A stretch of DNA of 64,000 bases from Bryobacterales bacterium (GTDB lineage Bacteria > Acidobacteriota > Terriglobia > Bryobacterales > Bryobacteraceae), in the NCBI GenBank assembly GCA_003167495.1, contig PMSX01000228.1:1-64000 (forward strand). The letters run 5' to 3'. Each line of letters opens with the position of its first letter. The first letter of the stretch is position 1. The translations under genes and the position numbers were made by a program. Shown piece after piece: positions 1-62,252 of the stretch. The notes beneath the pieces are model-generated. The model did not search any database and was not told the DNA's origin. It saw only the letters and a list, made by a program, of their open reading frames with translations.

Positions 1-97
1 ATTTGTTGGACACTACACTAGAGCACGGGAAGCAGAAGCACCCTGGCGAGATTCCCGAAGCACTTTCTACTAACCCAGCAGGTAATGCACCGGCGGC

Positions 98-1030
98 TCA
101 TTGAGCAACACTCTCTAGCTTCCCATGCGCCATCTTGTCATCAATGGCTAATTTTGTTTGGTGAAGAGATGTCGCGAGCGAGTCTCTCGATACGCGGCGG
201 ACAATGGGCGTCACGAAGAAACGAAACGCCGCGGGAATATCGCGGCTTAAGGCGATGGCCTCCAACTCGGCATACACGCCTCCGTCCCGCTCCTCCAAGC
301 GCGTGATGCTGGAAAGCCGCCAAATCAGGCCAGTGCCCTCGTCCTCAGGCAAGGTTCGTTGCTCCGAAGTCCCAAACTTATCAACCTCCTGGATGTGGGT
401 TGTGTTAGAAATGGCGTACCAGTGACGATCGTCCACACGAATATACGACGCTTCGCAGTCGGTATCGAGAGCCGTTTTCGCCACCACGGTTTTGTTCACG
501 AGGCGAAGGGAAAAGAGGTCTTTGACTCCGTCAGAACCGTGCGAGATTGAGTCAATTACGCCTGGTTGGTAGATCTCTTTGTAGCGGTCATAGTCCCGCA
601 CGATCCGCAAAATGTCCTCGATGGTCGCATTAGGGACGAAGCCCGCGCCAAGCCAATCGTGGATGAGCCCGGAAGGAACTTTCTGCGGAATTTGCCGGCT
701 GATTGGCCCTATGTAAGGTCCCTTAGTGCGGACATGCTCCGCCCGATCCGGCTCGTCATCGAGCCAAAGAAAATGTGCCCCAGGCTGGAGGCGAGCCTGC
801 ATCGCGGCAGTTGCCGTCTGAAGATAAGCATCCCAGGCTGCTTTCGTTTCCGGCTTCAAGGTGGCCGCACCAACGAACTGAGGAAGTTGCAGCAAGATCA
901 AAATAACGACTAGGCCATCATTCTTTATCTTCTTAAAAGTTCTCGCCAATTCTAAAAACAAAAGCCGCAAATGACGGATTTCGTGTTGGCGGCTGCCGAA
1001 ACCCTTGGCGCTCTCGATCTGCGTCATCAT
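98..1030 (-). CDS. Hypothetical secreted or membrane-anchored protein, possibly START/polyketide-cyclase-like
   Basis: 310-aa ORF with hydrophobic N-terminal segment (VVILILLQLPQFVGAA); fold guess from the conserved-looking 'DYDRYKEIYQPGV' region only. Confidence 0.55.
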   Translation of the reverse strand: MMTQIESAKGFGSRQHEIRHLRLLFLELARTFKKIKNDGLVVILILLQLPQFVGAATLKPETKAAWDAYLQTATAAMQARLQPGAHFLWLDDEPDRAEHVRTKGPYIGPISRQIPQKVPSGLIHDWLGAGFVPNATIEDILRIVRDYDRYKEIYQPGVIDSISHGSDGVKDLFSLRLVNKTVVAKTALDTDCEASYIRVDDRHWYAISNTTHIQEVDKFGTSEQRTLPEDEGTGLIWRLSSITRLEERDGGVYAELEAIALSRDIPAAFRFFVTPIVRRVSRDSLATSLHQTKLAIDDKMAHGKLESVAQ

Positions 1031-1490: not shown

Positions 1491-1568
1491 AAGAGTCATT
1501 CACGACGGTGTTTGTTGGATTGCCTCATCGGATCGAACCCCCAACAAAAATGCTTCCGAATGACTCTT
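1491..1568. repeat. Nested inverted repeat: 11-bp outer arms and 8-bp inner arms
   Basis: AAGAGTCATTC (1491-1501) / GAATGACTCTT (1558-1568); inner TTTGTTGG (1511-1518) / CCAACAAA (1541-1548); both intervening spacers are 9 nt. Confidence 0.75.
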
Positions 1569-2279: not shown

Positions 2280-3527
2280 ATGCCTGATTCAATCGCTTCA
2301 TCGCAGCCCAGCTTGGCGCACCGGCTAAAGGAGTGGCTCGTCCCAGGGCTGATTTTGTTTATGGCCGTTGGGATTCTATTTTTGATCGCTGGGAACTGGA
2401 ATACATGGGCCAGTGAAAGGCCTTCGCAAGAAACCGACGATGCCTACCTGCGGGCAGATCTCACACCCCTCAGTACAAAAGTAGCGGGACTTGTGGCGAC
2501 CGTCAATGTCTCGGACTATCAGCCGGTCAAATCGGGAGATCTACTCGTGCAGTTGCGAGACGATGATTTTCGGGCGCAGGTGCAGCAGGCCGAAGCTGCG
2601 GTAGCGGCAGGCGAGGATGCGCTCATCAACAATCAGCGCCAGAAAGAACTGCAGAACGCGCACATTGTTCAGGCGGACGACGGGATTCACGCGGCGGAGG
2701 CCGACATAGCGGCGGGCGAGGCCGGAGTAGAAGCGGCGAAATCGATGATCGCCAATGCCTCGAGCGGAATCGATGCCGCCAAAGCCGATATGGAACGTAC
2801 ATTGTTAGAACGCCGGCGCCAAGAAGCGCTCATCGCGACAGAGTCGGCTACGCACCAAAAACTCGAGCAAGCCGTTGCGGACGAGCAGCGCTTTCGCGCA
2901 CAGCTCTCAAGCCGGGAAGCGGACCTCAGTTCGGCAAAGGCGCAGTTGGCCAGCCGCCAAGCTGATCTGGCGCGAGCACAAGCGCGGCTGGCTAGTACCA
3001 AGGACGAACTGGAAGCGCAGAAACGCCAGCGCGCTGTCCTCGACTCTCAGGGACTTATGCTGCACGCCGATCTAAGTTCGAAAAAAGCCGCGCTTGCACT
3101 TGCTCACACCGATCTCGATTACACGCGGATTGTCGCGCCGGAGAGTGGCATCGTTAGCGAGCGCAAAGTACGCCCCGGGCAACTAGTCAGTCCAGGCACC
3201 CAGGTTATTTCGCTTGTCCAAAAGGACATTTGGGTGCAGGCCAATTACAAAGAAACGCAAGTCCGCCGTATCCTCGCAGGAGACCCTGCCGAAATTCGCG
3301 TGGATGCCCTCCCTGGAACGATTTTCCGGGGGAAAGTCGAACATGTATCGCCGGCTAGCGGCTCACAGTTCGCCTTGTTGCCGCCTGATAACGCAACCGG
3401 TAACTTCACTAAGATCATACAGCGGATACCAGTGAAGATCGTCCTCGACGCCAACCAGGCCACTGAGCGTTTACGGCCCGGGCTATCGGTAATCGCAACC
3501 GTTCGCACAAGTGGCGCAGGCCAGTGA
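2280..3527 (+). CDS. HlyD/EmrA-family membrane fusion protein
   Basis: N-terminal TM helix, 'TDDAYLRADLTPLSTKVAGLV', long Ala/Gln-rich coiled coil, 'APESGIVSERKVRPGQLVSPGT'. Confidence 0.9.
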   Translation: MPDSIASSQPSLAHRLKEWLVPGLILFMAVGILFLIAGNWNTWASERPSQETDDAYLRADLTPLSTKVAGLVATVNVSDYQPVKSGDLLVQLRDDDFRAQVQQAEAAVAAGEDALINNQRQKELQNAHIVQADDGIHAAEADIAAGEAGVEAAKSMIANASSGIDAAKADMERTLLERRRQEALIATESATHQKLEQAVADEQRFRAQLSSREADLSSAKAQLASRQADLARAQARLASTKDELEAQKRQRAVLDSQGLMLHADLSSKKAALALAHTDLDYTRIVAPESGIVSERKVRPGQLVSPGTQVISLVQKDIWVQANYKETQVRRILAGDPAEIRVDALPGTIFRGKVEHVSPASGSQFALLPPDNATGNFTKIIQRIPVKIVLDANQATERLRPGLSVIATVRTSGAGQ

Positions 3528-5151
3528 AGGTGCTTCGGTGATCGCCTCAGCGTCTAGAGGAGCTCCCGCTCCATCACAATCCAGCCAGTCTAAACCGGCC
3601 ACCAATCCGTATGTTGGGATCTTGGGAGTCTTTCTTGGCGCTGGAATCGCCACCCTAAACGGGCGCTTGCTCAGCATAGGTTTACCCGATCTTCGCGGCG
3701 CCCTCGGCTTTGGCTTTGATGAAGCCTCGTGGCTTCCAACCGCGCTCAACATGGCGATGATGTTCAGTGGCGTGTTTGTTGTTTTCCTAAGCGTTGCCTT
3801 CGGCCCGCGCAAGATCTTGTTCACAACGGCGGCCATTTTTGGGGTTGCGTCCGCTCTTCTCCCCTTTGCCTCGAACTATCGCGGCATGCTGGCTTTAGTG
3901 GCGATCGCCGGTCTTAGTTCGGGCACCTTCTACTCGCTCACTATGACCTTCGTGCTAACCACGCTTCCCAGACGGCTGATTATCTTCGGGATTGCAGCTT
4001 ACGCTTCGGACATTGTTTTCATTAGCAACATTGCCTCGGCGATTGAGGGCTGGTACGCCGAGCATCTGTCTTGGCACTGGATCTTTTGGACTGCGGCCAT
4101 CCTCACTCCATTGATGATGCTATGCGTTTATTGGGGAATCCCCCGCAAACCTCCTAGCACTGATCCGAGACCCAGTTGGCGTGGCTTCGCTTATTTCAGC
4201 TTTGGCGTCAGTCTTCTCTATGGAGCTCTCGATCAAGGCGAGCGTCTGTACTGGCTGAACTCCGGCGTCATAGTCGCCATGCTCGCCGCGGGAATCTTTT
4301 TATTGGCAGCGGCGTTAGCGCGCCGTATCTCGCAGCCGAATCCAACGTTAAAGCTCGCCTTTCTCAACCACCGCAACATCATCATCCTCGCCTTATCAGT
4401 TTTCGCGTTTAGGTTCGTTCAGTTGTCCACCATTGTGCTCGTCCCCGGATTTCTGAGTAACATCCAGCAATACCGACCTTTGGAAACCGGCAATGCCCTT
4501 GCCTGGGTGGCGGTGCCAATGTTCGCCGTAGTCTGGCTAGTCGCTCTGATAGTGATCTATTCGCACTCGCGACTCATCTTGGCGCTAGGGCTCACCATAG
4601 CCGCGTTTGGCTGCTGGATGTTTGCACACCTCGATACGTCTTGGTCAGGGGCCAGCTTCGAAACCGTGGAAGTTCTTCTCGCCTGCGGCTTTGCCTGTTC
4701 ATTCATTGGTTTGATAGGTAGTTTGGTTTTGCAAGGTCTGGAAGCAGGCGTTCTTTCAAGCGCCGCTAATGCTGCCACTTACTCCGGATTCGTTCACTTC
4801 ATTCGTCTCTTTGGAGGTCAAGTCGGCGTCGCCATTATGACCCACTTCCTTGCGGTGCGGGAAAAATTCCACTCCAATCTGCTGGGTCTCCATGTGCAAA
4901 ATGGCGATTGGGTTACTGACGAACGACTACGCATGCTGAGCAGCGGACTTTTCGCTGGGTCCTCTGGGTTCGAAGAGGCTCAATCCCGGGCCCTCGGCAT
5001 TTTAGGTCAGCAGGTTCGGGCGCAGGCCTATACGCTGGCGACAGCCGATGGCTTCATCCTGGTCGGCTGGGTCGTAGTCGCTTATCTGCTTTTGATGCTC
5101 TTTCTCCAGCCGGGCAAACTCAGCTATCTGGATTTGAGGAACATGAAATGA
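3511..5151 (+). CDS. MFS drug transporter, DHA2/EmrB-type
   Basis: About 14 hydrophobic segments; follows an EmrA-like gene with short overlap; 'LNGRLLSIGLPDLRGALG', 'ASWLPTALNMAMM'. Confidence 0.88.
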   Translation: MAQASEGASVIASASRGAPAPSQSSQSKPATNPYVGILGVFLGAGIATLNGRLLSIGLPDLRGALGFGFDEASWLPTALNMAMMFSGVFVVFLSVAFGPRKILFTTAAIFGVASALLPFASNYRGMLALVAIAGLSSGTFYSLTMTFVLTTLPRRLIIFGIAAYASDIVFISNIASAIEGWYAEHLSWHWIFWTAAILTPLMMLCVYWGIPRKPPSTDPRPSWRGFAYFSFGVSLLYGALDQGERLYWLNSGVIVAMLAAGIFLLAAALARRISQPNPTLKLAFLNHRNIIILALSVFAFRFVQLSTIVLVPGFLSNIQQYRPLETGNALAWVAVPMFAVVWLVALIVIYSHSRLILALGLTIAAFGCWMFAHLDTSWSGASFETVEVLLACGFACSFIGLIGSLVLQGLEAGVLSSAANAATYSGFVHFIRLFGGQVGVAIMTHFLAVREKFHSNLLGLHVQNGDWVTDERLRMLSSGLFAGSSGFEEAQSRALGILGQQVRAQAYTLATADGFILVGWVVVAYLLLMLFLQPGKLSYLDLRNMK

Positions 5152-6497
5152 ACCGACCAAAATTCTACCGGACAATGGGGATGGCGGCGCTCGCCATCTT
5201 CTCCGCAGCAGTCACTTATGGCGCGGAAGTCCGTCGCCTCACCCTCACGGAGGCGGTGCATCTTGCAATCAGCCAGAACCGGGTGCTGAAAATCGCGCGC
5301 CTCAAGGTGACAGAGAGCGAGCAAAAGAAAGCCGGCGAACGATCTGCCTATTTCCCTTCAATCACTAACCAATCGAATGCGCTCCACGTTACGGATCTGC
5401 AGAATATCGGCATCCCAACGGGAACTCTAGGAACCGTGGCCGGATCGCTCGTCCCCGCTCAAAACGTCGTTCTCCCGCAAGGTCAGAGGACATTGTTTTC
5501 CAGCGGCACAATGCTTTCTCAGCCGCTAACGCAGTTGATCCGCATTCACCAAGCCAACCGGATCGCCGCCTCCGAAATCGCAGCTTCCCGCGACGATCTG
5601 AGAAATTCAGAGAACCAAGTCGCTCTTCAAGTGCACAATCTTTATTTCGGCATCCTGATCGCTCGCCTTCAAAAACAGGCGGCCGAACAACAAAGCACAT
5701 ATGCCGGTGAAAATCTGCGAGAGAGCGAGGACGACGTGCGCAACGGGAGCGCCCTCAAAGTTGCGTCCATTCAAGGCCGCGCAAGCGTACTGGAGAGCCG
5801 GCAAGCTGTACTCACCGCCGAACTCCAAGTCGACGACCTCACCACGGAATTGAACGACCTGCTAGGTCTACCGCTCGACACGCAACTCGAACTCGACCCC
5901 GGCGTGGCAGTCAGTGTTGAGCAACGCCCGCGGGAGGAGTATGTCCAGACCGCATGGTCGGAGAACCCCGAAATACAGGCCGCCGAGGAGGCTATCCGCA
6001 AGGCACAGGCCGGCGTCACTGCGGCGAAGTCCGCCTACATTCCCGATATCACTGCCTTCGCCCGCCAGAGCTATCAGGACGGAGTTCCGTTTTTCGTTCG
6101 CAATTTCGGCACCTTCGGTGTCAATCTAAATTGGGACGTGTTCGACTTCGGCAAACGCCACGCAGCCGTACGCGAACGGGAAACGCAATTGGCCGAAGCA
6201 GAAGAGAATCTGCGCCGGCTCAAGGAAGAAGTTGCCGTAGGAATCGAAAAAACCTATAACAAAATGGAGCGCACCAAGAGTCTGGTCGAGGTTGCCACTC
6301 AGGTTGTGAAACTCCGACAGGAGAGTGAGCGCCTGGCCGAGAACCAAGTAAGCCAGGGCGTGGTATTGGTCTCTGAACGCCGGCAAGCGACTGCCGCCAG
6401 TTACAAAGCACAGGCAGACTTGCTCCAAGCCAACTTAGGGTATCTGCTTGCTTGGGCCGAACTCGAACAAACAGTCGGCCGCACCCCCGGACTCTAG
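5148..6497 (+). CDS. TolC-family outer membrane efflux protein
   Basis: Signal peptide, 'LTLTEAVHLAISQN', repeated coiled-coil halves; 4-nt overlap with the MFS gene. Confidence 0.9.
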   Translation: MNRPKFYRTMGMAALAIFSAAVTYGAEVRRLTLTEAVHLAISQNRVLKIARLKVTESEQKKAGERSAYFPSITNQSNALHVTDLQNIGIPTGTLGTVAGSLVPAQNVVLPQGQRTLFSSGTMLSQPLTQLIRIHQANRIAASEIAASRDDLRNSENQVALQVHNLYFGILIARLQKQAAEQQSTYAGENLRESEDDVRNGSALKVASIQGRASVLESRQAVLTAELQVDDLTTELNDLLGLPLDTQLELDPGVAVSVEQRPREEYVQTAWSENPEIQAAEEAIRKAQAGVTAAKSAYIPDITAFARQSYQDGVPFFVRNFGTFGVNLNWDVFDFGKRHAAVRERETQLAEAEENLRRLKEEVAVGIEKTYNKMERTKSLVEVATQVVKLRQESERLAENQVSQGVVLVSERRQATAASYKAQADLLQANLGYLLAWAELEQTVGRTPGL

Positions 6498-7244: not shown

Positions 7245-7436
7245 CTTCAGGAGAGTGTTCAGCGACGTGCCGTTCGCGGGCCCTCGTCGATTGATGATTC
7301 GTCGAGCACTGTTTGTTAGGATTTGATGTGGACTGCGACCGGTTTTGAAGCGTCCGGCTCCAACAAAGATCGTCGAGTGGGTGCTCATTCTCTAAGAACG
7401 CCCTGCAGCCTGACTGAGCACGGCGAGCAGACGCAA

Positions 7437-7919: not shown

Positions 7920-8885
7920 TCATTGTGGCACTTTGCGTTCCTTCGGCTGCCTGATTCTCACGAGGCTCCACGGGCGCTGCTTAACCTGGTCGCTCAGTTC
8001 ATCCAGGTTCTCCGTTGCAATCCGAAGATTCTCTATTGTGTCGTGGACATTGTCATCGTTGGCACGCACAGTGGTTTGCAGGCTGGCGATAAGGGCCTTA
8101 GCCTGCTCCATCGTGGATTGCAGTTGTGCGAGATCTTGCCGGAGAGGATCGCGCAATTGCTCGATCGTTGTATTGACGTTGTTCACTGTCGCGTCTGTAT
8201 GTTCCAGCAGCGGATCCATTTTCTTAATGGCTGAATCCGCATCCCGGCTTACTAGTAACACCTGATCCGTTATCTGGTCGATCTTCGGCGATTGCTGGGC
8301 CACCATAGTGTTGACTCGGCGCAAGATTTCTGCGAACTGCTCGCGGTTGGCCGACCCTGTTGTTTCGTTCAGGTTAGCTAAGAGCGTGCTAGCTTGACCG
8401 CTAATTCCCTTGAGTTCGCCTTCCACCTGAGTAATCAAACCAGTCGCTTGGTCAGCAATCCCGGACAGCTTCCGCGTCATGTCGTCGATGCTCACCGTTT
8501 CTTGAGAAGCGATCACTTGACCCGCCTTAAGGCGTTGCGCGTCTTGAGCGCCGGTCGTGATGGAAATTGCGGGACTGCTCATCAGACTGATTGAGCCCAG
8601 CCGCGCTGTGGATTTCTCGTTGAGCGGCGTACCTTCTTTTACTTCAAGGAGAATCTCGATCTGCGTGGGATCCTGATTCCAAGGCCTAACAGAGGTTACC
8701 CTACCTGCTTCGATACCACCGAAAAGAACTGCCGATCCTGGTGCGATGCCCCCAGCGTAACGTAGGTAGGTCTTATAGGGAGTCAAATGCCTACCCCATT
8801 CATTGTTACCGACGTAAAAAACCGTTACGCTTAGCAAGCTCAAAGAAACGAGGACGAATGTCCCCACTTTCGCTTCTGTGGTCAC
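7920..8885 (-). CDS. mlaD: MlaD/Mce-family lipid transport protein
   Basis: TM helix then 'LRYAGGIAPGSAVLFGGIEAGRVTSVRPW' (MCE domain) and C-terminal helical region; adjacent to MlaF/MlaE. Confidence 0.88.
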   Translation of the reverse strand: MTTEAKVGTFVLVSLSLLSVTVFYVGNNEWGRHLTPYKTYLRYAGGIAPGSAVLFGGIEAGRVTSVRPWNQDPTQIEILLEVKEGTPLNEKSTARLGSISLMSSPAISITTGAQDAQRLKAGQVIASQETVSIDDMTRKLSGIADQATGLITQVEGELKGISGQASTLLANLNETTGSANREQFAEILRRVNTMVAQQSPKIDQITDQVLLVSRDADSAIKKMDPLLEHTDATVNNVNTTIEQLRDPLRQDLAQLQSTMEQAKALIASLQTTVRANDDNVHDTIENLRIATENLDELSDQVKQRPWSLVRIRQPKERKVPQ

Positions 8886-9709
8886 TGTGGATCTCCTTCC
8901 AAATAACGTTGCAAATATTTATCTACGGCCGCTGCGTCTGCGATGTTGTCGGGGACTCGATCGAAAAACTGCCGAATACGCGGATGCGGGTTGCTCCGCA
9001 GTTCCTCCTTCGTTCCCACTGCGATCAGCGATCCTCGATAGAGCATCGCCATGCGGTCGGCGATTCGGAATGCGCTTTCCATCTCGTGAGTCACCACCAC
9101 AACGGTCATATTGAACGCGCGCTTCAGGCCTAGAATGAGTTGATCCAGTTCGGCTGCCACGATTGGGTCTAGGCCGGCCGAAGGCTCGTCAAATACCAGA
9201 AGCTCCGGGTCGAGCGAAAGGGCTCGTGCGACAGCAGCGCGCTTCTTCATTCCGCCGGAAAGCGCCTGCGGGCTCAGTTTTCCAAACTCAGCCAGCCCCA
9301 CCACCGCTAGCTTCATCCAAGTCATCAGACGAATTGTGGATTCAGCCAGCCGCGTGTGCTCTCGCAGCGGCAGCGCGACATTGTCTTCCACGGACATTGA
9401 ATTAAATAAAGCCGAATTCTGAAAAGCCATTCCAATTGAGCGACGCACGCTCTTCAGCTCCCTGGCTGTGCATTTCGCCAGATCGACGCCGTTCACAAGA
9501 ACTTCTCCACTTTGCGGCCGCTCTAACCCGATGATTTGACGTAAGAGAGTGCTCTTGCCGGATCCACTACCACCTAGCAGGACCATAGTTTCCCCGCGTA
9601 ATATATCGAGGTTGATTCCATCGAGTACCCGGCGCCCGTTGTAGCTAACTGTCACGTCCCGGACGGAAATTACCGGGTCCGCCCGTGCCGGCTCTGGCGC
9701 TGGAGGCAT
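8882..9709 (-). CDS. mlaF: ABC transporter ATP-binding protein (MlaF-like)
   Basis: Walker A GGSGSGKST, signature LSGGMKKRAAVARAL, Walker B LLVFDEPSAGLDP. Confidence 0.93.
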   Translation of the reverse strand: MPPAPEPARADPVISVRDVTVSYNGRRVLDGINLDILRGETMVLLGGSGSGKSTLLRQIIGLERPQSGEVLVNGVDLAKCTARELKSVRRSIGMAFQNSALFNSMSVEDNVALPLREHTRLAESTIRLMTWMKLAVVGLAEFGKLSPQALSGGMKKRAAVARALSLDPELLVFDEPSAGLDPIVAAELDQLILGLKRAFNMTVVVVTHEMESAFRIADRMAMLYRGSLIAVGTKEELRSNPHPRIRQFFDRVPDNIADAAAVDKYLQRYLEGDPQ

Positions 9710-9713
9710 GACG

Positions 9714-10520
9714 TCACTTCGCTCCAGTCAGGTAGAAGAGGGCCGTGAATCCGACGTCGGCAAGGATAACGAGGAACGTGGATTTCACGACCGCCGCGGT
9801 GGCGGATCGACCGACCGCGTCTGGCCCTCCACGAACACGCAAGCCTTCAAGACACCCGACATGCACGATGATCGTCGCGAAAGCTAGACTCTTTACCAAC
9901 CCTGTCACGACGTCTCGCAGCACCATGGAGTGCCAAACGTATTGCAGGTAGACACCGAGAGTCATGTGCGTACTGAACCGCATGAAAAGCCCACCCGCCA
10001 AGATCCCGCAAGTGTTGCTGATGATCGTCAAACACGGCAAAGTGATCAGTGCCGCGAGGTATTTCGGAGCGAGCACGAATTCCACAGGGTCGATAGCCAT
10101 CGTCCGCAACGCGTCGATCTCTTCGGTTACCACCATACTGCCAATCTCTGCCGAAAACGCCGACCCGGACCGTCCGCTGACCGCAATCGCCGTTAACAAC
10201 GGGCCTAACTCCCGCGTAAAACCAATAGTCACCAAATCCACAACGAAATTCATGGCACCGAACCGGTGAAGTTCGGCGGCACCTTGCATCGCTAGAATGA
10301 ATCCCGCGCAAGCGGCCATGATCCCGACCATCGGAAACGCATCCACGCCCACCTCGAGCATCTGGCGGACGGCGGATCGCCAGCGGCTTCGATTCCCGAC
10401 TAGGGGCAAAGTTCTGCTGAGCGCGCCGAAGACGTTTGCAATCTGAATGGCCAAGCCGCCGACGTACTCGACCTGTCGCAAGGTCGCGCCTCCGAGTCGT
10501 TCAACGGTGGATGGGCTCAT
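9714..10520 (-). CDS. mlaE: MlaE-family ABC transporter permease
   Basis: 'FTRELGPLLTAIAVSGRSGSAFSAEIGSMVVTEEIDALRTMAIDP' signature. Confidence 0.93.
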   Translation of the reverse strand: MSPSTVERLGGATLRQVEYVGGLAIQIANVFGALSRTLPLVGNRSRWRSAVRQMLEVGVDAFPMVGIMAACAGFILAMQGAAELHRFGAMNFVVDLVTIGFTRELGPLLTAIAVSGRSGSAFSAEIGSMVVTEEIDALRTMAIDPVEFVLAPKYLAALITLPCLTIISNTCGILAGGLFMRFSTHMTLGVYLQYVWHSMVLRDVVTGLVKSLAFATIIVHVGCLEGLRVRGGPDAVGRSATAAVVKSTFLVILADVGFTALFYLTGAK

Positions 10521-10918
10521 TGAGGGCTCTCGGACGAAGCGCTTTTCTGTACGGTTTCGCTCTTGGCCTCATGGAAGAAACGCAGCAGCCGCGTCGTTTC
10601 CAGTAGGTATCTTGGTCGCTCCTTGAGCCCGGTTAGCTGGAACTCTTTCCCCTGGGTTCGTGCGGCTTTGAGGATCTCAACTAACATGGCGAGCCCTGAT
10701 GTGTCCACGTAGGCTACTTCGTTGAAGTCGATTGTCAAGGTTAGGCAACCAGGGGATGCCAACTGCTTTAGCAAGGTCTCGCGCAAGTCGGGCGATGAAT
10801 CGATCGTAATTCGCCCCGTGAGCACGGCTTGGCACTCCGGTCCGCGATGTTCGAACACTGCCTCGACGTCTTCGCTTCGCGCCATGGCCTTCGTCATTTT
10901 TCGCCAAGGGAAAGCCAT
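10517..10918 (-). CDS. STAS-domain protein (MlaB/anti-anti-sigma-like)
   Basis: 'LTIDFNEVAYVDTSGLAMLVEILKAARTQGKEF'; overlaps the mlaE start. Confidence 0.85.
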   Translation of the reverse strand: MAFPWRKMTKAMARSEDVEAVFEHRGPECQAVLTGRITIDSSPDLRETLLKQLASPGCLTLTIDFNEVAYVDTSGLAMLVEILKAARTQGKEFQLTGLKERPRYLLETTRLLRFFHEAKSETVQKSASSESPQ

Positions 10919-11011
10919 AAGTTTCCACTTCAGAAGAGCGCAGGAAGAGGGTTCTTGTTGGCAGGGAAAGTTTCACAACCCAACCTTCGCTACGCAGCAA
11001 ACAATTCATTA

Positions 11012-11656
11012 ATGTTGGGCATCTTGGTAATTGAAAAGACCACGGAAATGGCACTGACTTCACAGCTTCAAGACGGCGCTTTGATCAAGCTTGTACTGGC
11101 AGGCCGAGCCGATTGCTTCACGGTCCTGATGGATCGTCACTTGGCAACCGTAAGAAAGCGGATCGGCACGCTGGCGCGAAACGCAGCTGAAGCGGAGGAT
11201 CTCCTTCAAGAGGTGCTGTTGAAGGTCTGGCTCCACTTATCGACGTTTAAATCGGAATCCAGCTTTCGAACCTGGATGACCCGAATCGCCATCAATGAGG
11301 CCTTGCAATCATTCCGAAGGGAACAGCGCCGACGGATCGCTTATCTTTCCTACGATTTCGACAGCTTCGCTTCTCCGTATGAATCACAATGTCAGTCGTT
11401 AGCCAACCGTGAAAAGAGACAAACTCTTCGGAGCGCTGTGACGAAACTCGCGGCAAAGTATCGAGAGGTTTTGATTCTTCGCGATTTTGAAGGGCTAAGC
11501 GAGAAAGAGACGGCACACTCTCTCCACTTGAGCGTTCCAGCGGTGAAGACTCGTCTCAGGCGCGCGAGACTGATGCTGCGAGCAAGGTTCCCGTTGGCCA
11601 ACGGAGTGCCTGCCAGAAAAATTGGCAAGGAGAAGAATTCCTGTAATAATTTGTGA
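11012..11656 (+). CDS. RNA polymerase ECF sigma factor
   Basis: Sigma2 'AEDLLQEVLLKVWLHLSTFKSESSFRTWMTRIAINEAL' and sigma4 'YREVLILRDFEGLSEKETAHSLHLSVPAVKTRLRRAR'; start chosen inside ORF 10829-11656 because the upstream part overlaps the divergent STAS gene. Confidence 0.88.
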   Translation: MLGILVIEKTTEMALTSQLQDGALIKLVLAGRADCFTVLMDRHLATVRKRIGTLARNAAEAEDLLQEVLLKVWLHLSTFKSESSFRTWMTRIAINEALQSFRREQRRRIAYLSYDFDSFASPYESQCQSLANREKRQTLRSAVTKLAAKYREVLILRDFEGLSEKETAHSLHLSVPAVKTRLRRARLMLRARFPLANGVPARKIGKEKNSCNNL

Positions 11657-12030: not shown

Positions 12031-12559
12031 CCGGGTTTCGATTGTGGACCTCTTTGGCCGGCTGGGCCATCGCAGCGGATGAAAGTGGGTGATCATAATG
12101 CCGAATTAGGTCGCTGGGTCCGTTGCCTTCAGAGCTTGGCGTTGCCGACTCCTTGGGCGGGTGAAAAAGATGGTTGAGGCGTCTCAGCAGGGCGCTGCCA
12201 AACCAGGTCGCTGACGCTTCCATCTGGGTTCGATATTTCGACAGGGAGGCGGGTTTCGAATTTGCTGTGAATTCGAAAGGCCCGCCCAATATTACATGCG
12301 TGTAGCGGCAGACCAGCAATATTTAAGTTGTCAAACAACCGTGGGCCGATGCTTCGAACACGTTGCGGCGAGAAAGAATCGGCGCTCGTTTGAAAATAGC
12401 GTGCGGCGGGGACTGCCAGATGAACCACCGCCGGGCAAAACAGGCAAGTGGCTGATTTTTCAGGTATTAGGAAGGGAAAATAGTTTGCAAGACTTGTGAC
12501 CGACTTGCAGAAACCGTTCTAACTCTCCAACAAAAATCCCCGGTCGAAGCTCTTGCCGT

Positions 12560-13600
12560 ATGAGGACTGAGCGATCCCAACCAATGAGAGCTACCTCTCA
12601 ATTTGCCATCTTCTGGAGCTTCCTTGCCGTTGCGGCGTACGGACAGCAGGTGCAGGCTATCGGGAACATCTTCAAGCCGAAAGCGACGCCTGCGGAATCT
12701 GTTTACCACGTTTCGCTATTAGTGATGGCGGTTTGTGCGGCTATTTTTATCGTTGTCGCAGGACTACTGACCTTCGCGCTCGTTCGGTTTCGCCGAAAGT
12801 GTGGAGATCACAGAGAACCAGCCCAGGTGTATGGAAGCGATCGGATCGAGATCGCTTGGACGGTGATCCCGATTCTCATCGTCTTCGTGTTAACCATGGC
12901 GACGGCGCGCATCGTGTCGGCGACATTGGACAAGCCCATCCCTTCCGATGCTCTGAAGATAACTGTCGTCGGTCACCAGTGGTGGTGGGAAATCCGGTAT
13001 CCAGCATTCAGGATTGTGACTGCGAATGAGGTGCACGTACCCGTAAGCACAACGGCGAATCCCGCAATTACATTTCTTGGTCTGGAATCCGCCGACGTGG
13101 CACACAGTTTCTGGATCCCTCAGCTGGCCGGCAAGACCGACTTGATTCCAAACCACCCGAACCGCATGTGGATCGACCCGAAACAGGAAGGCACGTTTCT
13201 CGGCAATTGTGCAGAGTATTGCGGAACGCAACACGCCAATATGCGTTTGCGGGTGATCGTTCAGTCGCGGGCAGACTTTGCGAAATGGGTAGCAGGTCAG
13301 CAGCAAAACGCGATGACTGATGCGCACATTGAGACCGGGCGGTCTCAGTTTCTTTCGCTATCTTGCGTAAATTGTCATACCGTGAGTGGAACAGCGGCCA
13401 TTGGAACCTTCGGCCCAGACCTTTCTCACCTGATGAGCAGAGACACACTTGCCGCTGGAGTTGTTCCAAATAGGGTGAATAATCTCCGTGAGTGGATTAA
13501 AGATCCGGATGCTGTCAAACCGGGAAGTCTTATGCCTAATATGCAACTTACTCCTGAGCAATTAGATGAAGTTGTCACTTACCTCTCCTCCCTGAAGTAA
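12560..13600 (+). CDS. ctaC: Cytochrome c oxidase subunit II with C-terminal heme c domain (caa3-type)
   Basis: CuA motif CAEYCGTQHANM; 'GHQWWWEIRYP'; C-terminal heme site CVNCH. Confidence 0.93.
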   Translation: MRTERSQPMRATSQFAIFWSFLAVAAYGQQVQAIGNIFKPKATPAESVYHVSLLVMAVCAAIFIVVAGLLTFALVRFRRKCGDHREPAQVYGSDRIEIAWTVIPILIVFVLTMATARIVSATLDKPIPSDALKITVVGHQWWWEIRYPAFRIVTANEVHVPVSTTANPAITFLGLESADVAHSFWIPQLAGKTDLIPNHPNRMWIDPKQEGTFLGNCAEYCGTQHANMRLRVIVQSRADFAKWVAGQQQNAMTDAHIETGRSQFLSLSCVNCHTVSGTAAIGTFGPDLSHLMSRDTLAAGVVPNRVNNLREWIKDPDAVKPGSLMPNMQLTPEQLDEVVTYLSSLK

Positions 13601-22714: not shown

Positions 22715-22906
22715 GGTTCCACAAACTTACGACCCTAGGTCTCCCTAAGCTTTTCTATCTCACAAACTTTTGTTGCAACTCGCCAAGCGGCCAACAAAAG
22801 TAGTTCGTCTCGTCTCTTCTGGAACGTAGGAAGTGAAACCGAGTTCGGGCTTGTACGACGGGAATGTTCACTAAGTGCAGTTTCCGAGCGAAGGAGAAAA
22901 GGATAC

Positions 22907-36581: not shown

Positions 36582-38321
36582 CTACCTATTACCTCTCGCC
36601 GACAGCCTGGAACTCGCCGTCAAGTCGCGCTCTTCAACTTTAAATCTGTGTTTGTTGATATTCAAGCTCTTGATTTTTGATTCCAGCGTAGAGCGCGGGA
36701 TGCCAAGTTTGACTGCCGCGCCAGAGGGCCCAAAAATGCGCCCGCAGCTCTCTTCCAGTGCCGCTTCGATCATTTCCTTTTCCCTATTGGCGAGGGTCTG
36801 TGTGAGGGCAGAAGGCGCTTCCGGCCCTCTGGCTGCTTCGCACTGGATCCAGCTCTCGTCCACTGAAAACGTTTCTCGATCACACAGAATCACCGCTCTC
36901 TCGACAACGTTCTGCAGTTCTCGGATATTGCCTGGCCAATCGTAACTCTGAAATGACGCTATCGTCTTCTTTTCGACATTCACAATCTTTTTGCCGGCTG
37001 CAGCCGCGTAGCGGTTAATGAAGTACTTGGTCAGTAACGGTATATCGCCGGCGCGCTCGCGTAATGAGGGCACGCGAACCGGGAAGACATTCAGTCTATA
37101 AAACAAGTCGAGCCGGAATGTGCCGGCATCGACAGCGGCTTTCAAGTCCTGATTAGTGGCCGCGACAACTCGCACGTCCACCGATACCGGATGGGCGCCG
37201 CCGATGCGTTCAAACTCGCGCTCCTGCAGGACGCGCAGCAGCGCGATCTGCGTCTCAGCTGGAATGTCACCAACCTCGTCAAGGAAGATCGTGCCGCCAT
37301 TCGCCAGCTCAAAGCGGCCCAGACGCCGCTCACTGGCGCCAGTGAACGCTCCTTTCTCATGGCCGAAAAGCTCCGACGCGATTAGCGATGGTGGAATGGC
37401 CGCGCAATTGACGCGCACAAATGGGCAGTTCGCGCGCCGTGAACGTTTGTGTATCGCACGCGCGATCAGTTCTTTGCCTGTTCCGCTCTCGCCCGAGATC
37501 AGAACAGTGGACTCCGTCGGCGCAACCCGCGCGACATGCTCCAGAGTTCGGAGAAGTGGAGTGGACGAGCCAACAATTTCTTCGAACATCGCACCGTTGA
37601 GGATCTCTTGCTCCAGGTAAAGTCCCTCGCAGGCGAGTTTCTCCTCGAGGCAGCCGATTCGACGATGCGCGACTGCGTTTTCGACAGCAACTGCTATCTG
37701 TCTTGCGATCTGCTTCAGAAACGGGAGTTGACAATCAGCGAACGTGGCTTCGGTGAGACTGGCTAGAGTGAGAACACCAGGGGTTCGGCCAACCAATGGA
37801 AGGTGGCACAACGCTTTGAATCCTTCAGTCCACGGGAGGACATGATTATCCAATTTAGCGTCCGTAAGCCGCAGCGGCTCACCAGCTTGCACAAGCTTTG
37901 TCAGCCACGCACCCCCGTCGGCTGAGTTGGCGTGTTGCTTTTGCAGCCGTCCGCTGTTACCTGGATACTCAATGGCCCACTCGCGAAAACTGCACAGATC
38001 TTCGGGATCGAATAGCGCAATGCTTGCCGCGTCGCACTGAATTACACGCCGGATGGTGGGCAAAAGATCTTGAAGCAAGTGAGGTATGGTGAGGCCCGAG
38101 ACTGTGATGCTCATAACGTCCAACAAAGCTTCCAAGTGCTCTCGCGAAAGCTGAATGTACGTAGCATTACTTCCTCGATCAAGCGAATGGAATTGTGACG
38201 AGTCGCTAAGAACACCTCCTCTGCTAAAGGTATGTCCGCGCCGACGGAGTGCTTTGTGCTCCGGCTTTAGAGGTCTTCCGCCGAGAATGGTTTGGAAGTC
38301 AGTCAATGCGATGTGTTTCAT
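36582..38321 (-). CDS. Sigma54-interacting transcriptional activator with GAF domain and Fis-type HTH (EBP1)
   Basis: '[20 protein letters not shown]', [16 protein letters not shown]-terminal '[21 protein letters not shown]'. Confidence 0.94.
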
Positions 38322-49891: not shown

Positions 49892-52800
49892 ATGGATTAC
49901 CGCTCGATTCCCTGGATTGAATCGAGAGGAGAGATCGGAGTGTCGGGAATGAATATAATACGACCTATGGCTGCCAACGGAGATGGTGCCCCCCGACGGG
50001 ATCAAACGTCAGACCTTCAACTCCTTGTCCATTCGACCCCCAGCCTGATTCACACGGGTAGGCCGGACGGCCACCTCGATTTCTTTAATCAAACATGGGT
50101 CAGGTATGTAGGTCAGTCGGTGCAGGATTTGGAGGGCTGGAAGTGGACAGCGTTCATCCATCCCGAGGATGTCGAAGGAATCGTGGAAAAGTGGCGCGCG
50201 TCTCTGGCCAGCGGCGAGCCGTTCCTGCATGAAGCCCGCGTCCTGCGTGCAGACGGTGAATATCGCTGGCTGCTGCACCACAAAGTAGCAGTGCGCGACC
50301 GGCACGGCGAAATAGTTAAGTGGTATGGGTCAAGTATCGACATTGAGGATCGCAAGCAAGCGGAAGAACAGCTCCGCCGAAGCACCCAGGAGCTGCAAAG
50401 AAGCGAATTTTATCTCGCCGAAGGGCAGCGCCTTGCCCACATGGGTAGCTGGGCCTTCAATCCTGCCGGATTCGACTACTGGTCTCCTGAATTATTTCGA
50501 ATGCACGGCCTCGATCCGGCCCGCAATCCGCCTAATGTTCAGGAATACCTGGATTATCTCCACCCGCAGGATCGCGAATCCATGGCGACCATCATCAAGG
50601 GGCTTTCGACGAAGGCTTCAGCCTTCGATGTCACCAAGCGAATCGTCCGACCTGATGGCGAGGTCCGGTACATTCGCTGCGTCGGGGTTCCCGTCATCGA
50701 AAATCAAAGCCTCAAAAGGTTCATTGGCAGCGCTATCGACGTCACGGAGCAAGAGTTGGCGAACCAGGAACTTCGACGGCGGGAGGCCTATCTCGCAGAA
50801 GCCCAAAGGCTCAGCCACACAGGCAGTTTCGGGTGGAGGCCTGATGACGGCGAGCTTGTCTGGTCAGACGAAACCTATCGCATCTTCGAATACGACAGCA
50901 CAGTAAAGCCAATCCTGGATTCAGTGATTCAGCGCGTACATCCCCAGGATGTGGCGCCTTTCCAACAGGTCACCGATCGCGCATCCCAGACTGGCACAGA
51001 CTTCGAACATGAGTATCGCCTGCTGCTGCCCGGCGGGCGAGTCAAGTATGTCCATACGATTGCTCGCGCGGTACAGAGTGCATCCGGCGACCGCGAGTTT
51101 ATCGGGGCTGTCACCGACATCACCGAACGTAAGACTACCGAGGATAAAATCCGGCGCTTGGTCGAAGCTGGCATTCTGGGGATCTTCATCGCGAATGTCC
51201 AGGGTGAGATCGTCGAGGCCAACCAGGCGTTTCTACGAATGCTGCAGTACGGCCGTGAGGATCTCCACTCGGGTCGATTGCGCTTGACGGATCTGACGCC
51301 AGCGGAATTGCGCGAACGAGACCAACGTGCCTTGACAGAATCGCTGGCAACCGGAGTCTTTCAGTCATACGAGAAGGAGTTTCTCCGCAAAGATGGCAGC
51401 CGCGTGCCAGTGCTGATTGGGGGGGCGCTATTTCAAAGTGCGAACGAGGGCGTAACGTTTGCCCTCGACTTGAGCCAACAAAAGCGCGCCGAGGGAAAGA
51501 TCCGGGAGCAGGAAATGGAGTTCCGGCAGATTCTGGATTTGACGCCTCAGCTTGTTGCCGTATACGGGCTTAATCGTGAACGCCTTTACGCCAACCGCGT
51601 CATGCTTGATTACTTCGGTCTTAGTCTCGAAGAGTGGCAGCGGAGAGTTAAATTTGGTCAGGGCCTTCATCCCGATGACTGGGAACGGACGATCGGCCAT
51701 TTTGATAGTGCTGTCTCTAGTGGGGCTGGTTTCGAGGTGGAGTTGCGCCTACGAAAAGGTGATGGAACTTATCGCTGGTTTCTGACCCGTTGCAACCCTG
51801 TGTGCGACGACAAGGGACAGATCATGCGCTGGTACGTTGCGTGTACCGATATTGAAGACCGCAAGCGGGCCGAACAGAAACTTCAGCAAGAAAACATTGC
51901 CCTCCGCGAGGAGATCGACAAGACTTCGATGTTCGAGGAAATTGTCGGCACATCGAGGCCTCTAAAGGCCGTTCTTTCGCAAATTGCCAAAGTTGCGCCG
52001 ACCGACTCGACCGTTCTGATTACCGGAGAAACCGGCACCGGCAAAGAGCTCGTTGCCCGCGCCGTTCACAAACGATCCCACAGGTCTGGCCGTCCCTTCG
52101 TTAGTGTGAATTGTGCGGCGCTTCCGCCCGCGCTGGTTTCCTCGGAATTGTTTGGCCATGAGAAGGGAGCTTTCACGGGAGCGACGCAGCGTCGACTCGG
52201 CCGCTTCGAAATGGCTGACGGCGGAACGATTTTCCTGGACGAAGTGGGCGAACTGCTATCCGAAACTCAGGCGGCGTTACTGAGAGTACTGCAGGAAAGG
52301 GAATTCGAGAGGGTAGGGGGAGGACAACCCATTCAAATCAACGTTCGCGTAATCGCTGCCACCAATCGCGACTTAAACGCCGCGGTAGCGCGTGGGACTT
52401 TTCGTCAGGATCTCCTGTATCGCCTGAATGTGTTTCCGCTCGAAGTGCCGCCTTTGCGAGAACGGAAAGACGACCTCTTAATGCTGGTCGAGTATTTCGT
52501 GCAGCGCTACGCCAATCGAGCGGGAAGAAATATCCGATCAATCGACCACAAGACCCTGGAGCTATTGCAGTCCTACGACTGGCCTGGCAACATCCGGGAG
52601 TTGCAAAACGTAATTGAAAGGTCCATTATTTTGAGCTCCGCCGATATTTTTTCAGTTGATGAGTTGTGGCTTTCCAAACGGACTCATTCGCAAACACCTC
52701 GGGTTGAACCGTTGCCGGTTTTGAATGTCGAGCCGCGAAGCGAACGGGAGATTATCGAGGCGGCGCTGGCCGAGAGTAGAGGCCGCGTATCCGGAGCTTC

Positions 52801-52894
52801 AGGAGCGGCAGCCAAGCTTCGAGTTCCAGCTTCTACTCTTGAGACCCGCATTAAGGCGCTGAAGATCGATAAACGCCAGTTCAAATTCCGGTAG
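49892..52894 (+). CDS. Multi-PAS sigma54-interacting transcriptional activator with Fis-type HTH (EBP2)
   Basis: Several PAS/PAC blocks ('[38 protein letters not shown]'), '[20 protein letters not shown]', [16 protein letters not shown]-terminal HTH. Confidence 0.94.
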
Positions 52895-57866: not shown

Positions 57867-59003
57867 ATGAATTGTTCTTCGACTGCTTTAGACGCCTTCA
57901 CCCCTGGATCCCTTTCTGGCAAGCAGGATCGGATGTCCGACCATTTCGTAGACCGTACCGCGAGTCGAGGTGGCACCGAAACGTCTAAAGGCCCCACTGA
58001 AGAAACGCTCAATCTCCGCGACGAAGACATCCTCTCGACATCCGTGTTCGAGGAGATCGTCGGCTCCTCAGAGGCGATCAGTCGAGTTGCCGGACAAGTG
58101 ATCAGGGTCGCTCCTTCGGGGGCCACAGTCCTCATAACCGGAGAGAGCGGCACGGGAAAGGAACTCATCGCCCGCGCGATTCAGAAGAGGTCGCGACGGT
58201 CGGCATCGCCTTTCACAAAAATGAATTGCGCCGCTACGCCACCCTCGCTGATGGCAACCGAGCTCTTTGGTTACGAGAAAGGTGCCTTCACCGGCGCCAA
58301 CCAGCGACACGCAGGCCGTTTTGAAGCCGCGAACCACGGTACGATTTTCCTCGATGAGATCGGCAACATGCCAGTGGAAACCCAAGTCGCCCTGTTGCGC
58401 GTGCTCCAGGAACGCGAATTCGAGCGGGTTGGAGGTACGCAGAGCATCTCCGTTGACGTTCGAGTGATCGCAGCCACAAACTGCGATCTTTGGGCCGCGG
58501 TTCGTTCCGGGAAATTCCGTCTGGACCTCTTTTATCGCTTGAACGTCTTTCCGATTCACGTCCCCCCTCTTCGCGAGCGGCGGGAGGACATTCTTTTGCT
58601 CGCCAAGTATTTCATCGAACGCTACGCTGCTAAAGAGCGCAAGAGGATTCAAAGGATAGAAAAGCGGACAGCAGAGCTTCTCGAGGCATACGACTGGCCG
58701 GGAAACATCCGTCAACTTCAGAATGTGATTGAGCGAGCCATGATCCTTTGCGATGCGGATACGTTCTTCGTTGAAAAAGCATGGCTGCACTCGGAATCAG
58801 AGCCCAGACTCGGCCTGCAGCCGTCTCTGACAACCCAGGAGCGAGAGCTCATTGAAGCTGCGCTTGCGGAAACCTGCGGCCGCATTTCGGGTCCAGATGG
58901 CGCTGCCAGGAGGCTGGGAGTGCCGAGGACGACGCTGGAATCCAGGATCAAGAGCTTGCGCATTGACAAATACCTGTACCGGGTTGAAGGTCGCGAGCGC
59001 TAA
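57867..59003 (+). CDS. Sigma54-interacting transcriptional activator lacking a sensory domain (EBP3)
   Basis: '[20 protein letters not shown]', GAFTGANQRHAGRFE, Fis-type 'GAARRLGVPRTTLESRIKSLRIDK'; only ~50 aa before the AAA+ domain. Confidence 0.94.
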   Translation: MNCSSTALDAFTPGSLSGKQDRMSDHFVDRTASRGGTETSKGPTEETLNLRDEDILSTSVFEEIVGSSEAISRVAGQVIRVAPSGATVLITGESGTGKELIARAIQKRSRRSASPFTKMNCAATPPSLMATELFGYEKGAFTGANQRHAGRFEAANHGTIFLDEIGNMPVETQVALLRVLQEREFERVGGTQSISVDVRVIAATNCDLWAAVRSGKFRLDLFYRLNVFPIHVPPLRERREDILLLAKYFIERYAAKERKRIQRIEKRTAELLEAYDWPGNIRQLQNVIERAMILCDADTFFVEKAWLHSESEPRLGLQPSLTTQERELIEAALAETCGRISGPDGAARRLGVPRTTLESRIKSLRIDKYLYRVEGRER

Positions 59004-59214: not shown

Positions 59215-59458
59215 CGACCTGTCCCGCCGTACAGAGTGGCTTATGGCCCATCGTCAACCGGCGAATTTGCAACCCAACAAAACCCGGATCCGAAGGCTCC
59301 TCAGTTGTGAGTAGCGAACAAACAAGTTTACGAGAAAGCATATGTCGGCACCTAGTGCAAACCCGACGGACGATTCAGCGCTGCCCGGATTGAGGCGTTT
59401 CGAGCCAGTCCGACCATTCCGCCGTCTAGGTTAGTGCTGAAGCCATAGGAGGTAAACG

Positions 59459-61667: not shown

Positions 61668-62252
61668 ATGATGGAACACACAATCCCAAATGAGAGACTC
61701 CTTCAGGAGGGAGCGGCCGTCGCTACGTTCCTGGAGTCTCCCAGCGAACATTCCTTCGCTGACCTCTTCAAAATCTACACTCCACAACTGATCTCGTTCT
61801 TCCGCGCGCGTGGCTGCGAGACGGCCGTGAGCGAAGAACTTGGTCAGGAAGTGATGTTCATCGTCTATCGCAAAGCGGATCGACTTCGCGACCGCACCCT
61901 GTTTCGAGCGTGGCTGTTCAAAGTTGCACGAAACGCTCTCTGCCGTCACTACGGCAAACAAGCGCGCGAAGTGGATACGATCGCGCTGGAAAAGGCAGGC
62001 GATCATTTGGTTGCTTCCAGTAAAGCGCAGGCCGCGACACCCGCGTTCGAATTTCTGCACTGGATGTCATTTCTTGACTCCCGTGAGCGGGAAGCGCTGA
62101 CACTGCGCTTTGTCGAGGAATGGGAATACCACGAAATCGCTGCGGAGAAAGCGATTCCGATCGGCACTGTCCAGTGGCGTGTGTTCAATGCAAAAAAGAA
62201 ACTCGCGGTGCATCTCAAACGCCGCGAGAGAACGCTGCCAGTAACCCACTAA
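61668..62252 (+). CDS. RNA polymerase ECF sigma factor (SigZ-like)
   Basis: 'LFKIYTPQLISFFRARGCETAVSEELGQEVMFIVYRKADRLRDRTLFRAWLFKVARNALCRHY', 'EREALTLRFVEEWEYHEIAAEKAIPIGTVQWRVFNAKKKL'. Confidence 0.88.
   Translation: MMEHTIPNERLLQEGAAVATFLESPSEHSFADLFKIYTPQLISFFRARGCETAVSEELGQEVMFIVYRKADRLRDRTLFRAWLFKVARNALCRHYGKQAREVDTIALEKAGDHLVASSKAQAATPAFEFLHWMSFLDSREREALTLRFVEEWEYHEIAAEKAIPIGTVQWRVFNAKKKLAVHLKRRERTLPVTH

Follow-up and report, generated by a model that had tools for sequence, protein, structure and literature searches.

A nested inverted repeat before a lipoprotein/efflux operon in uncultured Acidobacteria is most likely two outward-facing copies of one promoter

An AAC motif in the -35 box is a hallmark of ECF sigma factor promoters (PMC8103513). 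The canonical EcfG promoter carries AAC in the -35 element and CGTT in the -10 element (GGAAC...CGTT). The site described here resembles ECF promoters such as that of EcfG. It is bipartite, has AAC upstream, and places its downstream box ~17 nt from CCAAC. It differs from the canonical form in its boxes, which are CCAACAAA and GCTC[C/A/T]T. Because the downstream box is CTC[C/A/T]T and not CGT, the site is not filed in any described ECF group. The genes that it precedes resemble an ECF regulon in forming a small set of envelope/stress genes, with ECF genes in or beside the set. Unlike in ECF systems, no anti-sigma gene was identified, no autoregulatory site was seen, and the two putative promoters lie back to back.

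The element is also comparable to regions in which a regulator and its target have divergent promoters. In the relative G011, it separates the lipoprotein operon from a divergent sigma54-activator gene, with one arm for each. In contrast to such regions, both promoters here would be one regulon-specific motif, and in our sequence the divergent gene is gone while the left arm persists. MITEs and REP-like repeats are likewise short elements with inverted arms, whereas this element is undispersed and bound to orthologous positions and gene starts. No paper containing the octamer together with a sigma factor and a promoter was found in the literature.

The stretch analyzed (the window) comprises the initial 64 kb of contig C260, which is 88 kb long. 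The draft genome is 9.4 Mb, with 7.6% estimated contamination. We report that an inverted repeat at 1491-1568 is most likely two copies of one promoter facing outward. It appears to belong to a previously unrecognized coregulated set of envelope, efflux, and energy genes in uncultured Acidobacteria.

The inverted repeat and its orthologues

The nested geometry given in the first-pass annotation was confirmed. The inner arms match at 8/8 positions and the outer arms at 11/11, with gaps of 9 nt on both sides and a center of 22 nt. The features are as follows.

1491-1501 and 1558-1568: outer 11-bp arms, AAGAGTCATTC and GAATGACTCTT
1511-1518 and 1541-1548: inner 8-bp arms, TTTGTTGG and CCAACAAA
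1541-1570, + strand: right arm, a promoter-like site for the lipoprotein/efflux operon, with box 1 CCAACAAA at 1541-1548, spacer at 1549-1562, and box 2 ACTCTTGC at 1563-1570
1489-1518, - strand: left arm, the same site, with box 1 at 1518-1511, box 2 ACTCTTCA at 1496-1489, and a third box CGAAAGCT at 1484-1477 (E = 1.7e-4)
1603-2253, + strand: ABC_trans_aux lipoprotein gene, probable start TTG 1603, heading the efflux operon
2280-3527, 3511-5151, and 5148-6497, + strand: HlyD, MFS, and OEP genes, the rest of the efflux operon

Each arm is a bipartite site, CCAACAAA-N14-[G/A]CTC[C/A/T]T, after which TGAxAGCT is often found. A gapless alignment of twelve arms shows CCAACAAA, 14 variable bases, [G/A/C]CTC[C/A/T]T, and a weaker TGAxAGCT a few bases on. 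The match of the arm model to the right arm spans 1541-1580. The 11-bp outer arm consists of box 2 together with five bases of the spacer, which match in this copy. Spacers of paired arms are alike at 3-4 of 14 positions, against a mean of 4.2 for unrelated spacers; the exception is the 1491-1568 copy (7/14). Paired spacers are thus no more alike than unrelated ones, so that conservation resides in each arm's two boxes rather than in pairing between the arms.

The 28-nt arms of the repeat are 75% complementary. A perfect 8-bp inner arm with pairing of at least 19/28 was counted 4 times in the window, with overlapping registers each counted. The mean in 40 Markov-1 sequences was 0.25, and the maximum was 2. 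By arm score alone (21/28), the repeat is less exceptional (1 versus a mean of 0.35). The reported enrichment of the inner-arm octamer held (14 versus 2.1 expected; 0/100 shuffles), and the regulon site accounts for much of it. Start codons are mechanical calls. The lipoprotein gene had been proposed to start at 1567, within the repeat. TTG 1603 is the probable start, since it is preceded by GGAG and aligns near the starts of the orthologues, and the repeat then ends ~35 nt short of the gene. Integron attC sites have the pattern GTTRRRY...RYYYAAC; this identity was ruled out for the repeat by orientation.

Three genomes of the same genus have an orthologue of the lipoprotein (51-54% identical). 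In all three, the octamer pair TTTGTTGG-N33/34-CCAACAAA stands ~60-120 bp before the matched protein start, and the left octamer has one mismatch in two of them. The more distant MAG L093 (the same as G257) has the right arm only. The site thus precedes the lipoprotein gene in G001, G011, G005, and L093/G257, and it lies 59-78 nt before the start. The center of the repeat varies (22, 32, 33, 34, and 34 nt), and the outer box stays 14 nt from the octamer. The site was absent before the order-level orthologues and before those in G096, G079, and G097; in these three, the lipoprotein gene comes after an apparent MCE-type gene. A contig search with the lipoprotein alone gave no matches, and one with alignment A1 gave four loci. 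Searching 60 relatives at the DNA level with the 600-bp region returned only noise. Named records with the same operon are MAGs of Acidobacteriaceae and Bryobacterales.

Some relatives (L072, L073, and L074) carry small ion-channel and UspA genes between the lipoprotein and HlyD genes; the window has neither. A phosphoketolase gene adjoins the operon in G001 and G011. The same genome as the window also contains a truncated second lipoprotein gene (G000:C94, ~6146-6339; L071, L174), with a site variant, CGAACAAA, at the expected distance. The left partner of this variant, GTTCG at 32 nt, is a matching double change.

The left arm differs among the relatives. In G011, 65 nt separate it from the probable start (MGNEIS...) of the divergent GAF/sigma54-activator gene. 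It is intact in G001, where the activator gene is reduced to a 5' remnant (131 bp, 77% identical) that runs into the arm. G005 has no divergent gene, and its left arm lacks box 2. L093 has no left arm, and a related activator gene lies upstream in the same direction. Among these relatives, the left arm persists where there is, or recently was, a divergent gene (G011 and G001) and is worn or absent in those with none (G005 and L093), the pattern expected of two divergent promoters. The window counts against this reading in that it has no intact divergent gene for the left arm, which survives beside degraded sequence. Three sigma54-activator genes occur elsewhere in the window, at 36657-37826 (-), 51911-52867 (+), and 57867-59003 (+). 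They are 47-52% identical to the G011 activator.

A second inverted repeat, built to the same plan but more worn, occupies 1121-1225 and had been overlooked. Its inner octamers, at 1157-1164 and 1197-1204, are 32 nt apart. The left arms of the two repeats are 77% identical over 47 nt. The following features belong to it.

1123-1165, - strand: left arm, with box 1 at 1164-1157 and box 2 GCTCTTTA at 1142-1135 (arm model E = 3.0e-4)
1197-1204, + strand: right octamer, without box 2, directly abutting the Spy-like pseudogene
1215-1451, + strand: pseudogene of a Spy-like secreted protein, N terminus missing, frameshifted, with an internal stop

The pseudogene is situated between the two repeats and matches homologues at 44% identity (E = 4.1e-8) and 47% identity (E = 4e-10). 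"Spy-like" is a label given by sequence character; Pfam gave no match. Intact Spy-like homologues in G074, G011, and G005 are preceded by the site. The left arm of the second repeat is directed toward gene 98-1030 (-). This gene encodes a secreted protein for which Pfam gave no match. Homologues occur in 202 of the 237 family genomes, and its own genome contains several paralogues. The site was not found before its closest homologues in the fetched loci. The contig itself starts within another octamer, TTTGTTGGA (window 1-9), which may be one more copy of the site, truncated where the assembly ends.

Recurrence of the site before other genes

In related Acidobacteriaceae MAGs, genes are preceded by single sites on the appropriate strand, mostly at a distance of 43-78 nt. 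The site, its spacing, its recurrence, its strand, and its position before genes are direct observations. The arm model, which uses sequence only, was searched in 237 family genomes. It gave E < 0.01 in only 6 of them, the five with the operon plus G074. A position weight matrix from the 12 arms was scanned over 12 contigs (334 kb) of the six model-hit genomes and G242. It found 36 sites scoring 12 bits or more, of which 24 lay outside the training set; reversed DNA gave 0. Since the contigs were chosen because they contain sites, these counts should not be read as rates across whole genomes; the reversed control and the model search across the family carry less bias. The scanned contigs contain 49 CCAACAAA octamers (9.4 expected; 6 in the reversed control). 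CTC follows 25 of the 49 at offset 15, and at any other offset it follows at most 4. Over 150 genomes, the exact pattern showed no general excess above control, which confines the regulon to a few genomes.

The matches in the window, with the genes that follow them, are listed here.

10932-10961, - strand: site CCAACAAG...GCTCTTCT, 43 nt before the STAS gene
8882-10918, - strand: mla-type transporter operon, with STAS at 10517-10918, MlaE permease at 9714-10520, and ABC ATPase at 8882-9709
12527-12556, + strand: site before coxB (16.3 bits); coxB is at 12560-13600, and the ATG used may be 12584
59274-59303, + strand: further good match, CCAACAAA-N14-GCTCCTCA (14 bits); an SMP-30-like ORF, a candidate target, starts 185 nt on
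22791-22820, + strand: weaker match, CCAACAAA-N14-TCTCTTCT (11.6 bits; one reversed-control hit reaches 11.4 bits), 116 nt before a dehydrogenase-like gene

For recurring targets, box 1 lies 43-78 nt before the start codon. The STAS gene heading the mla-type ABC operon has the site at exactly 43 nt in five of five genomes (the window, G001, G005, G011, and G257). The site lies 57-67 nt before the start of Spy-like proteins. Other site-bearing genes, named by sequence inspection only, are atpB in G001 and, in G242, glucose-6-phosphate dehydrogenase-like, isomerase-like, and histidine-phosphatase-like genes. Octamers at 7360, 26918, and 48657 of the window have a shifted or changed box 2 (N15; CTC displaced; AGTC for ACTC). 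They may be weak sites or chance occurrences.

Candidate sigma factors and competing explanations

The bipartite site is very probably a promoter. The twelve arms and most of the new sites share CCAAC-N17-GCTC, an AAC upstream box with a fixed spacer. A -35 AAC with a spacer of ~17 nt suggests an ECF sigma factor, and reading of the site by such a factor is favored on balance. Two candidates are encoded in the window.

61668-62252, + strand: ECF sigma factor A, 194 aa, Sigma70_r2 and r4, candidate reader of the site
~11051-11656, + strand: ECF sigma factor B, start uncertain (ORF from 10829), Sigma70_r2 and r4, second candidate reader

ECF presence was scored in the fetched contigs. ECF A is 55-71% identical to ECFs near sites in G257/L093, G001, and G005. 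Of these relatives, that of G257/L093 adjoins the lipoprotein gene, that of G001 is ~1.8 kb away from the STAS site, and that in G005:C349 neighbors ECF B. The ECF B gene and the STAS operon are arranged divergently in the window, G001, and G011; in G005, they lie close together. Which of the two acts (A at 61668 or B at ~11051), if either, we can only infer. Two points speak against an ECF promoter. The -10-like GCTC[C/A]T is not the usual ECF CGT, and in the fetched contigs neither ECF gene is preceded by a matrix or model hit. Autoregulation, which many ECF genes show, is not required of all of them.

We consider it probable that the repeat contains one regulon promoter twice, in divergent orientation, with an ECF as its probable reader. 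The inner octamer CCAACAAA of each arm would be a -35-like element bearing the AAC typical of ECF promoters. The outer arm would supply a -10-like [G/A]CTC[C/A/T]T 14 nt further out, with transcription starting a few bases beyond. The right arm would drive the lipoprotein/efflux operon. The left arm would be the matching promoter of a divergent gene lost in the window, a sigma54-type activator in the relative G011. The same promoter before the STAS-mla operon, coxB, and other window genes would coinduce efflux with envelope-maintenance and energy genes. Coinduction would probably be by a nearby-encoded ECF sigma factor, ECF A or ECF B.

A sigma70-like hexamer (TATACT or TATCCT) follows GCTCC in some arms, which makes an activator-type operator possible. 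Each arm would then serve as a two-part operator at which an activator or response regulator works together with the housekeeping sigma70. The hexamer would be the -10 element, and CCAACAAA (~-39 to -32) an activator site overlapping the -35 element. This explanation is unlikely. In its favor, TAT[A/C]CT is present in the right arms of G001, G011, and L093, and the site has a GAF/sigma54-activator gene as its neighbor in two genomes (G011 and L093) and a histidine kinase gene in G005. However, the window arms and several STAS and Spy sites have a poor hexamer or none but keep CTC, and ECFs are the only linked regulators in most loci. No sigma54 -24/-12 sites were seen by eye in the arms or just downstream, despite the sigma54-activator neighbor in two relatives. 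The first-pass suggestion of a dual operator came nearest. The arms are two opposite copies of one protein-recognition site, best read as divergent promoters.

The same annotation offered a cruciform or RNA leader and a very short MITE. A hairpin or cruciform (RNA leader or terminator-like) in the operon 5' region is very improbable. The 11 + 8 bp of pairing in the window copy gives z = -2.8 when folded as RNA, but only z = -1.1 with flanks (16 nt left, 7 nt right). Among five sequences, 12 double-change cells were counted against a shuffled mean of 7.3 (15/500 shuffles), but a register slid by +2 gave nearly as many (10), and the pair counts are equivocal. Arm pairing is not clearly maintained. 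The 14-nt spacers are unpaired above background except in the 1491-1568 copy, the repeat had no Rfam match up to E = 5, and single arms recur without partners. With the promoter in the right arm, rightward transcription would leave out the repeat. A MITE or other mobile repeat is less credible still, and we give it almost no weight. Its long terminal arms, a second copy, and an imperfect 11-bp direct repeat (1149-1159/1208-1218) flanking the 1121-1225 copy would fit such an element. No target-site duplications are evident at 1491-1568. The genome search, however, yielded no dispersed copies, only one partial related copy 354 bp away. The element also keeps its position in the orthologous loci of other species, and single arms stand at constant distances from genes. 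Arm pairing that is not clearly kept, single arms that recur alone, and the lack of dispersed copies together disfavor both the hairpin and the MITE. Treating absent copies and absent compensatory changes as decisive, as had been proposed, overlooks the real signal, which is the one-arm copies before other genes.

Implications for uncultured Acidobacteria

The chances seem even that uncultured Acidobacteriaceae have an ECF group with a promoter specificity of its own (CCAAC-N17-GCTC[C/A/T]T) and that this group jointly controls the tripartite efflux operon, an mla-type lipid transporter, Spy-like periplasmic proteins, a terminal oxidase, and sugar-phosphate genes. The repeat would then be a double promoter that also ties a sigma54-activator gene into the regulon in some species. 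The case also illustrates how two divergent promoters can give rise to a nested inverted repeat, with neither hairpin nor mobile element involved. Target genes can be predicted from the site, and two candidate regulators are encoded in the window. It would tie efflux to envelope-lipid maintenance and respiration. One odd palindrome may in this way lead to a testable regulon in organisms known here from metagenomes alone.
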